Shown one piece after another: positions 33,984-37,998 of a stretch of DNA of 64,000 nucleotides. The position numbers and the translations under genes are program-made. The stretch's first letter is position 1. Each line of letters starts with the position of its first letter. The notes under the pieces were generated by a model. That model had not been told where the DNA came from. It was given only the letters and a program-made list of their open reading frames with translations, and did not search any database. This stretch comes from DHVE2 group archaeon (lineage in GTDB: Archaea > Thermoplasmatota > Thermoplasmata > Thermoplasmatales > Aciduliprofundaceae), in assembly GCA_027023265.1 (NCBI GenBank), contig JALVVV010000049.1, positions 124,001 to 188,000 on the forward strand. The letters run 5' to 3'.

Positions 33984-34113
33984 CCCTCTTTAAAATTTTT
34001 GGAAAAACACACAAGCATACATTTTAATTTTCCATACCTTTTTATAAGTCGCAAATATCGGAGAATCTACCTTTTGCAAGGCAATTAAAGCACATGTCGC
34101 AAAATGAAAGTAG

Positions 34114-34186
34114 CAGCCCCGGGCAGATTCGAACTGCCGTCCCGGGCTCCAAAGGCCCGGATGCTTGGCCACTACACCACGGGGCT
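34114..34186 (-). tRNA. trnQ: tRNA-Gln (anticodon UUG)
   Basis: The minus strand folds into a full cloverleaf. The acceptor AGCCCCG pairs with CGGGGCU, and the D-arm is GUGU/GCAU with an AGUGGCCAA loop. The anticodon stem CGGGC/GCCCG carries loop CUUUGGA (anticodon at 34150-34152), and the T-arm GGCAG/CUGCC carries loop UUCGAAU. The discriminator base is G and CCA is not encoded. There is no intron. The spacer 33984-34113 shows no gene. Confidence 0.95.
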
Positions 34187-34219: not shown

Positions 34220-34921
34220 TTAAGTTTCACCCTTTAAATGGTACTCAACGCGCTTCATAACCCCCATCAAACTATGAAACTCCCACTTGCTAAGTATTGC
34301 TCTTCCCAAGAGCCGCCTGAACATCACTTCGGTGTTTTTCTTTTTGTGAGGAGGAAAATCTATCATTGAAAGAATCTCCGAAAATCTTTTTACTAGAATA
34401 TCAAGCTCCATATCTTCTGCAGGTGGATTAGAATCAACCTCAACGGAATTTCTGTATATTTCATACAGTACAATGGCCGCAGCGTGAGTTACGTTCATTA
34501 TTGGATATTTGGGAGATGTGGGTACCGTAACAAGGACATCGCATAATTCCAGCTCTTCGTTATACAGCCCGTAATTTTCACGCCCGAACACAATGCCAAC
34601 CTTACCTTCAAAACTCCATATTCTCTTACCAAGTTCCTCAGGACTCAGAGCTATTCTGTTAAATTTTTTGGCTGATTTCGTACTTACCCCACTTGTGCCC
34701 ACCATAAAATCCAGAAACTCGCGCACTTCCCTGAAAGTATTCATTACCATTGCATTTTCCACTATGCTCCTTGCGTGCTTTGAAAATCTATATGCATCAT
34801 CGTCTAATTCAGGGGGATTCACGAGTATCATCTTATCAAAATCAAAATTAGCCATCGTCCTCGCCAAAAAGCCCACGTTTCCGGTAAACTGTGGCTCAAC
34901 AAAAACCACATAAGCTCTCAT
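34220..34921 (-). CDS. SpoU/TrmH-family RNA methyltransferase (TrmJ-like)
   Basis: From ATG 34921 this is a 233-residue SPOUT enzyme: N-terminal FVEPQFTGNVGFLARTMANF, then the trefoil-knot SAM-binding motifs VGIVFGREN and PIMNVTHAAAIVLYEI. It transfers a methyl group to a 2'-OH in tRNA or rRNA; archaeal members related to TrmJ modify position 32 of tRNA, which is the closest guess. The start is set by the family N-terminus and a TTTAAAA box about 28 nt upstream. It lies just downstream of tRNA-Gln in the genome, with opposite reading into that spacer. Confidence 0.88.
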   Translation of the reverse strand: MRAYVVFVEPQFTGNVGFLARTMANFDFDKMILVNPPELDDDAYRFSKHARSIVENAMVMNTFREVREFLDFMVGTSGVSTKSAKKFNRIALSPEELGKRIWSFEGKVGIVFGRENYGLYNEELELCDVLVTVPTSPKYPIMNVTHAAAIVLYEIYRNSVEVDSNPPAEDMELDILVKRFSEILSMIDFPPHKKKNTEVMFRRLLGRAILSKWEFHSLMGVMKRVEYHLKGET

Positions 34922-35078
34922 GAGGCATCGTAAAAGGCTATTGTTTTTAAATCTTCCTAAATTCAAATTAATGCCCATCACTGCTTCCAGGTAATTGTTT
35001 GTTTCAAAGGATTTTTCTGTTAGTAAAAGAAGAAAAACATTAAAAGTTCCAATCACATTACCCGGATGGTGAGCTTTC

Positions 35079-36023
35079 ATGAAAAGGATAATTGTCACAG
35101 GTGGATTGGGCCAAATAGGTTCCGAGCTTGTTCCCTTCCTCAGAAATAAATACGGAAAGGAAAACGTAATAGTTGCGGACATTAGAAAGCCAGAAAATGC
35201 GGACGAGGTTGAGCCGTTTATAACACTGGATGTGAGGAATGAAGAAGCGATAATATCTGCGATAAAAGAAAACGATGTAGATGCAATGTATCATCTTGCG
35301 GCTATATTGTCAGCCAAGGGTGAGGAGAATCCCCAGCTGGCTTTTGATGTGAACATAAAAGGACTTTATGCCGTTTTGGAGGCGGGACGGAAAACGGGGC
35401 TTGAGAGAATAATGATTCCAAGCTCCATTGCTGCATTTGGTCCAGAGACCCCCAAGGATAACACACCCAACGACACCGTATTAAAACCAAGAACAATGTA
35501 CGGGATTAGCAAGGTTACCGGCGAGCTTCTCGCACTTTATTACTGGGAAAAGTACGGGCTCGATGTGCGAGGCGTGCGCTACCCGGGCATAATAAGCTGG
35601 AAAGCCCCACCGGGAGGAGGCACGACGGATTACGCGGTGGAGATATTCTATTACGCACTCAAAGGTGAAAAATACACATGCTTCTTGCGAGAAGATGCAA
35701 CCCTGCCCATGATGTACATGCCAGACGCCATTAAGGCAATAACCATGCTGGCCGATGCCCCTGCGGAGAATCTGGTGCACCGCGCGGACTTCAACATTGC
35801 CGCAATGAGCTTCTCCCCCAAGGAACTGGTGGAAGAAATAAGAAAATACGTAGATTTCGAGGTAGAATACAAACCGGATTACAGGCAGAAAATCGCCGAT
35901 TCATGGCCCCGGAGCATAGACGACTCCGCCGCGCGCAAGGAATGGGGCTGGAAACCAGATTACGACATGGCCACAATGGTCAAAGACATGATTAAAAATT
36001 TGAAGAAAAAGTTAGGACTTTGA
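35079..36023 (+). CDS. tdh: L-threonine 3-dehydrogenase, SDR type
   Basis: This 314-residue extended short-chain dehydrogenase has a Rossmann motif GGLGQIGS at 8-15, an MYHLAAILS segment, catalytic YxxxK as YGISK near residue 145, and the block YPGIISWKAPPGGGTTDYA that is typical of the UDP-galactose-epimerase-like threonine dehydrogenases known from Thermoplasma. It oxidises threonine to 2-amino-3-oxobutyrate with NAD. The 3' end overlaps the convergent tgtA gene by 12 nt. Confidence 0.9.
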   Translation: MKRIIVTGGLGQIGSELVPFLRNKYGKENVIVADIRKPENADEVEPFITLDVRNEEAIISAIKENDVDAMYHLAAILSAKGEENPQLAFDVNIKGLYAVLEAGRKTGLERIMIPSSIAAFGPETPKDNTPNDTVLKPRTMYGISKVTGELLALYYWEKYGLDVRGVRYPGIISWKAPPGGGTTDYAVEIFYYALKGEKYTCFLREDATLPMMYMPDAIKAITMLADAPAENLVHRADFNIAAMSFSPKELVEEIRKYVDFEVEYKPDYRQKIADSWPRSIDDSAARKEWGWKPDYDMATMVKDMIKNLKKKLGL

Positions 36024-37820
36024 ACTTTCTATCCCTTCTCTCACTTTTACGCACATTCCCTTCGAGAAATGTAGCATCTCATCTCTCTGCATGAGCGTTT
36101 TTCCCACTGCAACTAAGTTATCCTGCTTATCCACGATAATAACTTCGTCTCCCGGCCGCAAGTCAGGGTCAGCATCCAAGACAAATTTAGCAAACACGTT
36201 CTTGCCCACACGGTTGAACTCGGCGGAGTCATCGCTCACAACAACCCGCATTTTTTTAAACTCGAAATGCGAGTGCAATCTCCAAGCGCCGGCAATTCGT
36301 AAGGATAAGAATCCATCTTCGGCACGGAGCGAGGCAACGTGCTCTCCGTCTACGATGACATTTCGTATCTTGCCCGTGTTCTTCGATTTCACTATCTTTA
36401 TCGCTCCCGAGAAAAGCGCATCCCCGGCACCCGCTCCAAATTGGTAGTCAGCAATCATTTTTATCTTTTTAATATCAAACTCTTCCCTAGTAATTTTTTT
36501 CACATCTTCGGGCACATTTTCGCGCTCTTCCCACGGGAACTCGGACTGCGCCACAGGATAGATGTCCTCAAGCTCTATTGGCACGTTTCCAAACGGGGTT
36601 TTCACAGCCACATCTGAGGGTATGCTTTCTAAATTTGCAGTCCAAGGCCTTTTCATTTCCACAATCTTTTCTCTATTTGGCATGCTCTTCAACCTTTTTT
36701 TAAGGCGATACACGATAGGCCTTTTCATGCTCTCCGCACCGGTGTAGAAAAACGCCGACTTTTTGCTTATGTTCTCGTACTTTTCTAACCATTTTCTATG
36801 CTTTAATATTTCCCGGTAAGCTTCTAACAACCTCGGATGCTCTCTCGCCCGAATCTCAGCGTACTCCCAAATGCGACCCTCGTGTATCGCTTCTTTTATT
36901 CTCTTTATTTCTTCCAAACTCATGTAGAGGTTATGCTCTGCAAGCAAGCGCTCTCTTTCCCTCTTATTCATCTTTTTTAGCTCATCTATATCGTGCCTGT
37001 CAAACACAGGCGAGAAAAACGGCGGATATTTTATGTCTTTCAAATGCCGCGTTCCATCGGGAAACAATAATCGGTCATCTCTTGCATATTTCACGTATGC
37101 CGCAGAATCGAAGAAATCTATGCCCAAGAGCACAGCGAGGGGAAAGAACATGGGGTGTCCCGCACCAAACAGATGCACGGGCTTTGACGGGTCAATAATT
37201 TTCTTGGCGTTTATTATGGCACGCACAACATCGCCGTAGCGGTAATCTTCCATAAGAGGTACAACACCTCCAACTGCAAAATAATCGAACCCGATGCGCT
37301 CCATCAACCGCGCAGAATACCTTCGCAAATCATCGTATATCGAGCCCTGCAGCACGCCGGCAAGGAGCATATCGCCCTTTATTTTCACGCTTTCTTTTCC
37401 TCTCTCGGCGGTTATTTCGATTGCCTTTTTGACCTCCTCATGCTCGTGATACGGCTCTGTGAAAACGTCCAATATGGTGCCTATATCCGTGCCTATCTCC
37501 CTTTGAAAATTCACGATATCGAGGTAATTCACTTCCACATCGCCGTACACGTGCTGCTGGAACGTGCCGCTATCGGTCATAATCAACCCTGAAAAATTGA
37601 GCATACGATGCAAGCCCTCTTTTAGCGCTCTTTCTCTCAGTTTCCGGTTTTTCCAGATTATATACGAATTGGTTATTAGGGCTTCCACATTGAATTTCGA
37701 TTGCATCTCTTCGGGAGGTATGATTATCAGATTCGGATTGACCACTGGCATCAACGCCGGCGTTTCCACGTTTTTGAACTTGCAGATTCGCGCCAAGCCA
37801 TCTCTCGTCTTGAGCTCCAT
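36012..37820 (-). CDS. tgtA: Archaeosine tRNA-guanine transglycosylase lacking the zinc cysteines
   Basis: This 602-residue full-length ArcTGT replaces guanine-15 of archaeal tRNAs with preQ0. The catalytic barrel is intact: TDSGTF with Asp83, and nucleophile-position Asp238 in DFFDSAAY. It is followed by the C-terminal domains ending in a PUA domain. The zinc loop, normally CxCxxC about 23 residues before a His, reads FFSPVF at 268-273, while the downstream His296 in AEHNLY is kept. So three of four zinc ligands are gone although the frame is intact. ATG 37820 fits the family start and a TTAAATA box about 22-25 nt upstream. The enzyme may be active without zinc or altered. Confidence 0.9.
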   Translation of the reverse strand: MELKTRDGLARICKFKNVETPALMPVVNPNLIIIPPEEMQSKFNVEALITNSYIIWKNRKLRERALKEGLHRMLNFSGLIMTDSGTFQQHVYGDVEVNYLDIVNFQREIGTDIGTILDVFTEPYHEHEEVKKAIEITAERGKESVKIKGDMLLAGVLQGSIYDDLRRYSARLMERIGFDYFAVGGVVPLMEDYRYGDVVRAIINAKKIIDPSKPVHLFGAGHPMFFPLAVLLGIDFFDSAAYVKYARDDRLLFPDGTRHLKDIKYPPFFSPVFDRHDIDELKKMNKRERERLLAEHNLYMSLEEIKRIKEAIHEGRIWEYAEIRAREHPRLLEAYREILKHRKWLEKYENISKKSAFFYTGAESMKRPIVYRLKKRLKSMPNREKIVEMKRPWTANLESIPSDVAVKTPFGNVPIELEDIYPVAQSEFPWEERENVPEDVKKITREEFDIKKIKMIADYQFGAGAGDALFSGAIKIVKSKNTGKIRNVIVDGEHVASLRAEDGFLSLRIAGAWRLHSHFEFKKMRVVVSDDSAEFNRVGKNVFAKFVLDADPDLRPGDEVIIVDKQDNLVAVGKTLMQRDEMLHFSKGMCVKVREGIESSKS

Positions 37821-37998
37821 GGGATAGCATGGGCACGGGGTATTTAATCGTTGATGGGAAAATTTCCAACTATGAAACACGAGCATTAGTTTTACGGAAT
37901 TTCAAAATAAGGTAGGTAGTGATGGAATGCAGGGGGCAATCTAACCATCTTTTCGCCCATATTTGAAGGTAGATTATGTTTAATCATACAGGTAAATA

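Follow-up and report, generated by a model that had tools for sequence, protein, structure and literature searches.

The archaeosine transglycosylase (ArcTGT, TgtA) encoded in the window, i.e., the whole stretch of 64,000 nucleotides analyzed here, has lost all three cysteines of its zinc site, and this loss is a fixed trait of its order, common to Thermoplasma and Aciduliprofundum. The explanation that we favor, with good confidence, is a working zinc-independent ArcTGT that became fixed at the base of the order and where the metal would have given way to an aromatic/aliphatic mini-core; it would be the only ArcTGT of the organism. The zinc-free variant of the window is ancient and very probably active.

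The gene lies on the minus strand, with M23 as the likely start, since the alignments of homologues begin at that residue. Its features are as follows.

36012..37820 (−), zinc-less ArcTGT (TgtA) gene from the likely start M23, 602 aa (TIGR00432)
36012-37886 (−), full ORF counted from the first ATG, 624 aa
37002..37019 (−), ex-zinc loop FFSPVF replacing CxCxxC (alignment)
36933..36935 (−), His318, position of the fourth ligand, retained (HNL motif)
37572..37574 (−), D105, catalytic Asp (DSG motif; alignment)
37107..37109 (−), D260, catalytic Asp (DFFDS motif; alignment)
36834..37775 (−), TGT catalytic (TIM-barrel) domain, residues 38-351 (PF01702, 245 bits)
36540..36770 (−), C1 domain region, residues 373-449 (PF14809, 22.9 bits, weak, cut-off 25.3)
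36258..36467 (−), C2 domain, residues 474-543 (PF14810, 97.8 bits)
36033..36248 (−), PUA domain, residues 547-618 (PF01472, 68.9 bits)

We take D105 to be the acid/base and D260 the nucleophile, following the roles in the TGT family. The minus-strand codons 37019..37002, TTT TTC TCG CCT GTG TTT, give F290 F291 S292 P293 V294 F295. The alignment with the ArcTGT of P. horikoshii (1IQ8) is gapless (phmmer E 9e-156) and sets PCSCPVC against PFFSPVF, with Cys1 changed into Phe, Cys2 into Ser, and Cys3 into Phe; the spacing between F295 and His318 is 23 residues, as in P. horikoshii. Codons and alignment confirm the original prediction in its reading of FFSPVF at the CxCxxC, of Phe at metal-ligand positions (F290 and F295 occupy the sites of Cys1 and Cys3), of the His at 23 residues, and of both catalytic aspartates (D105 in DSG and D260 in DFFDS). 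The remaining cysteines of the ORF, at 18, 20, 35, and 612 (the first two precede the likely start M23), are unable to rebuild the three-cysteine site.

With the TgtA equivalog TIGR00432, the protein scores 548.2 bits (cut-off 350), vs. 112.8 bits with the Q-type Tgt model TIGR00430 and 164.8 bits with the ArcS equivalog, both under their cut-offs (306.75 and 440, respectively). The motifs DSGTFQ, QGS, GGVVPL, and HLFGAGHP, which presumably line the preQ0 pocket, are present, aligned with 1IQ8 and kept among relatives. At the place of the Cys-x-Cys-x2-Cys…His zinc site stand F290/S292/F295 and H318, and the protein is therefore a zinc-less ArcTGT variant, not a canonical zinc TGT. An AlphaFold model built from a 50-sequence alignment has a mean pLDDT of 93.4; the ex-zinc loop (residues 268-273 in model numbering) falls inside the blocks 261-270 and 271-280, with 93 and 95. 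The whole chain of the model superposes on 1IQ8 (Z 51.7, 1.3 Å over 562 residues, 48% identity; Foldseek TM 0.90/0.94), so that an ArcTGT fold is expected from the model. Because AlphaFold folds confidently even without the metal, the pLDDT is no proof of zinc-free stability.

The spread of the loss was followed in ArcTGT genes from representative genomes, drawn from overlapping sets (60 relatives and the window's own genome; 200 genomes of the class; 146 of the phylum). Within the order (families f1 and f3-f6), 61/62 genomes with sequence over the site lack all three cysteines, the sole exception (G212) having a Cys only at the third of the positions; G003, the 63rd genome, has just a fragment that does not reach the site and stands outside the count. 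In the phylum outside the order, the site is CCC in 92 of the 101 sampled genomes. The named loci, which overlap with these genes so that the two counts are not additive, give 13/80 without the site and 67/80 with CCC; the former include loci of Aciduliprofundum sp., a DHVE2 archaeon, Cuniculiplasma sp., and a Thermoplasmatales MAG, the latter loci with Methanomassiliicoccales, Sysuiplasma, and Thermococcus in their titles. The other phyla are represented by P. horikoshii and three loci with Thermococcus or Thermococcaceae titles (L271, L277, L282), all four intact. Thus, while the original prediction was right about an otherwise complete ArcTGT with its zinc cysteines gone, the state is not peculiar to a single gene but fixed order-wide.

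The f2 genome G018 was excluded from the count. It has a different TGT (L062:161-1225, minus strand), also without the zinc-site cysteines and nearest to the Q-type model (204 bits, under the cut-off of 306.75); we found no ArcTGT in this genome, which is 86% complete.

The nine exceptions outside the order are three genomes of f42, three of f50, one of f47, one of f33 (G290), and one of f9 (G063). The ArcTGTs of f42 (L179, L190, L193), f50 (L182, L191, L192), and f47 (L181) belong to another class and have frames of 676-849 aa. The zinc His itself is replaced by Tyr or Phe in f42 and f47, and the zinc ligand is therefore unnecessary there. In f33, the one genome with sequence over the site has a long-branch ArcTGT (L189) with GEFSAAP at the zinc loop. 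The f9 locus (L144) has a very C-rich run at the expected zinc loop, which gives SPSPSPPRPTPTP and may be a sequencing artefact or a low-complexity insertion; a member of the same family (L145) is intact.

A tree of 138/246 rows, thinned by family, with the zinc columns removed and six fragments dropped, places all 48 zinc-less order rows that it contains in one clade (SH-aLRT 95, starred), and a single loss at the base of the order is therefore the best placement. Over the whole tree four changes are required, of which starred branches force three; one of the four is L144, whose C-rich low-complexity stretch we distrust. A single clade of the order and f42/f50/f47, a grouping defined after the tree was seen, is not rejected in an AU test on 54 chosen rows (p 0.338). 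Zinc losses do exist outside the order; given this p-value and the doubtful L144, we make no claim as to the number of independent losses.

The zinc-less gene is under strong purifying selection. By the Nei-Gojobori method, dN is 0.027 and dS 0.627 against G002, and 0.029 and 0.600 against G006 (both relatives 95% identical), hence a dN/dS of ∼0.04-0.05; more distant pairs, where dS is saturated, were left out. The replaced codons are kept in G002, G006, and G005, the nearest relatives covering the motif, with synonymous changes in and around them. The prediction that a sequencing error is unlikely holds in these three genomes, and an error of sequencing or assembly is ruled out, the change being common to independent genomes with synonymous differences and to the whole order. 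We also reject a pseudogene or inactive copy, on the dN/dS of ∼0.04 and the retained catalytic residues.

The proteasome alpha subunit of genome G038 and 1PMA, the T. acidophilum proteasome, agree at all 233 residues compared, and G038 is thus T. acidophilum. Its ArcTGT reads PQWSPLYDRY…RHNL, without any of the three cysteines, and the whole frame of 633 residues has a single Cys. A search with PF01702 gave one match in this genome and no second TGT. T. acidophilum is listed among the archaea with an experimentally identified ArcTGT, and its tRNALeu is described with G+ at 13 and 15, in PMC11298593; an ArcTGT acting on G13 and G15 is likewise reported in PMC6313347, where G+13 is given for only one tRNA of one species. 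According to these later papers, a zinc-less ArcTGT therefore works in that lineage. The changed function that the original prediction had offered as an option is unneeded, since they credit this member with both G+13 and G+15, and the function of ArcTGT is most likely unchanged. The multisite activity at G13 may mean a somewhat shifted function.

The genome of the window contains a second PF01702 protein, on the same contig outside the window (G000:C49:34633-35679, minus strand; L001:1495-2574). It has an intact zinc site (CSCYTC..H), scores 458 bits with TIGR00430 (cut-off 306.75) and only 163 with TIGR00432 (cut-off 350), and is single-domain, with neither C2 nor PUA. QueA, QueF (TIGR03139, 110 bits, cut-off 86.9), and QueH are present. 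Being a Q-type Tgt accompanied by QueF, QueA, and QueH, the second TGT is no replacement for TgtA; it is predicted to belong to a queuosine pathway at G34. A second canonical TgtA, which the original prediction had named as counter-evidence, does not occur in this genome, where the other TGT is a bacterial-type queuosine Tgt. Of the archaeosine genes, a RaSEA-family gene is present (361 bits with TIGR01210, which we take to correspond to RaSEA, cut-off 212), as is an ArcS-like gene with 395 bits in NF053620, below the cut-off of 600, and also below that of NF040592.

A full queuosine set (Tgt, QueA, QueF-II, QueH) thus stands beside archaeosine genes. Apart from the second TGT, the loci of the set, all outside the window, are:

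G000:C55:122566-123543 (L297)
G000:C57:11744-11968 (L296)
G000:C1:35033-35545 (L298)

The same set is found in G011, a single contig of 1,486,778 bases. Among 41 genomes searched, QueA occurs in 30, QueF in 26, and QueH in 24. A weaker QueA match (181 bits) is seen at G028:C5:3567-4562, in a genome of the genus of T. acidophilum; QueA is absent in T. acidophilum itself (G038) and in G036, of the same genus. Queuosine genes are reported for 34 archaeal genomes in PMC8204110, and our literature search found no paper on Aciduliprofundum and queuosine. A tie between zinc loss and the queuosine pathway is unsupported: f6, the family of T. acidophilum, is zinc-less although it has no second TGT and QueA is missing in seven of the eight f6 genomes searched. 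Organism-wide avoidance of zinc is also unsupported; the neighboring topoisomerase I retains its C4 zinc ribbon (PF01396, 64 bits), and the second TGT retains CSCYTC..H. Two genes from the ArcTGT gene, a tRNAGln gene with anticodon TTG (34113-34186, minus strand) adjoins a gene for a SpoU-family RNA methylase (34220-35182, minus strand).

The residues that replace the ligands follow a pattern. In the order rows covering the site, Cys2 is Ser (61/63) or Thr (2/63), followed by Pro in 59/63; the residue between ligands 1 and 2 is Trp, Tyr, or Phe in 44/63, and Cys3 is Phe, Leu, or Tyr in 51/63. Position Cys1 varies (Tyr 21, Pro 15, Phe 8, Glu 8, and others); with Glu, Gln, or Arg in 14/63, the replacement is not uniformly hydrophobic. 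The His is retained in 63/63 rows, and the catalytic Asp and His are kept in every order row covering them. We infer that the window protein binds no metal, that hydrophobic packing replaces it, and that the protein is active. The ancestor of the order would have dispensed with the structural zinc: with the middle Cys turned into Ser and the next Pro kept, the residue between ligands 1 and 2 turned into a mostly aromatic one (Trp/Tyr/Phe), and the third Cys into Phe, Leu, or Tyr, a few hydrophobic residues clustered beneath the HNL helix could hold the loop and helix formerly stapled by the metal. The enzyme would then replace G15 of tRNA, and possibly G13 as well, by preQ0, to be converted to archaeosine by ArcS and RaSEA.

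One could suppose instead that the window protein is decayed or inactive and that the second TGT, with its intact CSCYTC..H on the same contig, exchanges the base at position 15. This is extremely improbable: the second TGT is of the G34 type by its scores (458 bits with TIGR00430, 163 vs. a cut-off of 350 with TIGR00432) and lacks C2 and PUA, the genome has QueF, QueA, and QueH to go with it, the zinc-less gene has a dN/dS of ∼0.04, and T. acidophilum, without a second TGT, is nevertheless reported to make G+. Also very unlikely, on slightly better grounds, is a metal that has stayed in its old place, with His318 and oxygen or backbone groups as its ligands. The His kept in 63/63 order rows and the Ser for the middle Cys in 61/63 would suit such a site, but Phe, Leu, Tyr, and Trp at Cys1 and Cys3 are no zinc ligands, the HNL motif is kept for reasons other than zinc too (next to the His, the Asn and Leu do not vary in alignment A2), and some zinc-less homologues of another class have Tyr or Phe for the His.

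The ArcTGT of P. horikoshii, which retains the cysteines, reportedly modifies G15 only. By comparison, the ArcTGT of T. acidophilum, reported to act at 13 and 15 in PMC6313347 and PMC11298593, is zinc-less. The chemistry could thus be kept with the choice of site relaxed or shifted (G13 and G15), the loss of the zinc loop being part of how. We consider this unlikely: the correlation concerns one pair of enzymes with many other differences (∼45% identity), and G+13 is reported in just one tRNA of one species in PMC6313347. A broader proposal, that zinc is dispensable in TGTs and that a hydrophobic plug took over from the metal in the order and, probably, in separate lineages (f42/f50/f47, f33), letting ArcTGT reach G13 and G15, is speculative and has, in our estimate, a similarly small chance of being correct.

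A zinc-independent ArcTGT that works across the whole order would revise what is essential in TGTs: the metal would be a staple that can be replaced and would have no part in the mechanism, and the sequences of the order would offer natural templates for engineering zinc-free TGTs. Whether the multisite activity of T. acidophilum at G13 and G15 is connected to the remodelled loop is a testable question. Family resemblance alone is insufficient to call such enzymes inactive, or to call tested orthologues zinc enzymes. No zinc-less TGT is described in the literature searched, which mostly leaves out subscription papers; the primary T. acidophilum paper (Kawamura 2016, NAR) may mention it.

The bacterial and eukaryotic queuine TGTs (Tgt, QTRT1, QTRT2) act at G34 and are not known to carry the C1-C2-PUA portion at the C terminus. 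They share the TGT fold and chemistry with the window protein, whereas they keep the zinc site; the zinc domain is described as one of the two hallmarks of TGTs (PMC6165067), and even QTRT2, the non-catalytic subunit, has the site (PMC6165067, PMC4425180). Structural zinc cysteines have also been lost in nature, without loss of function, in other proteins of translation, namely in the pZBD of GluRS and the C+/C− forms of ribosomal protein S4, which have zinc and zinc-free versions (PMC4381286, PMC3087516), although these are other protein families and the likeness is one of analogy only. A close counterpart of the window protein is the T. acidophilum ArcTGT, orthologous, of the same order, and also without all three cysteines (PQWSPLY); it is reported as multisite (G13 and G15), whereas the window enzyme is known from sequence. 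The ArcTGT of P. horikoshii (1IQ8/1J2B) agrees with the window protein in family model, domain order, catalytic residues, and fold, and differs in holding its zinc by Cys279, Cys281, Cys284, and His307 (numbers counted on the alignment), where the window protein has F290, S292, F295, and H318.
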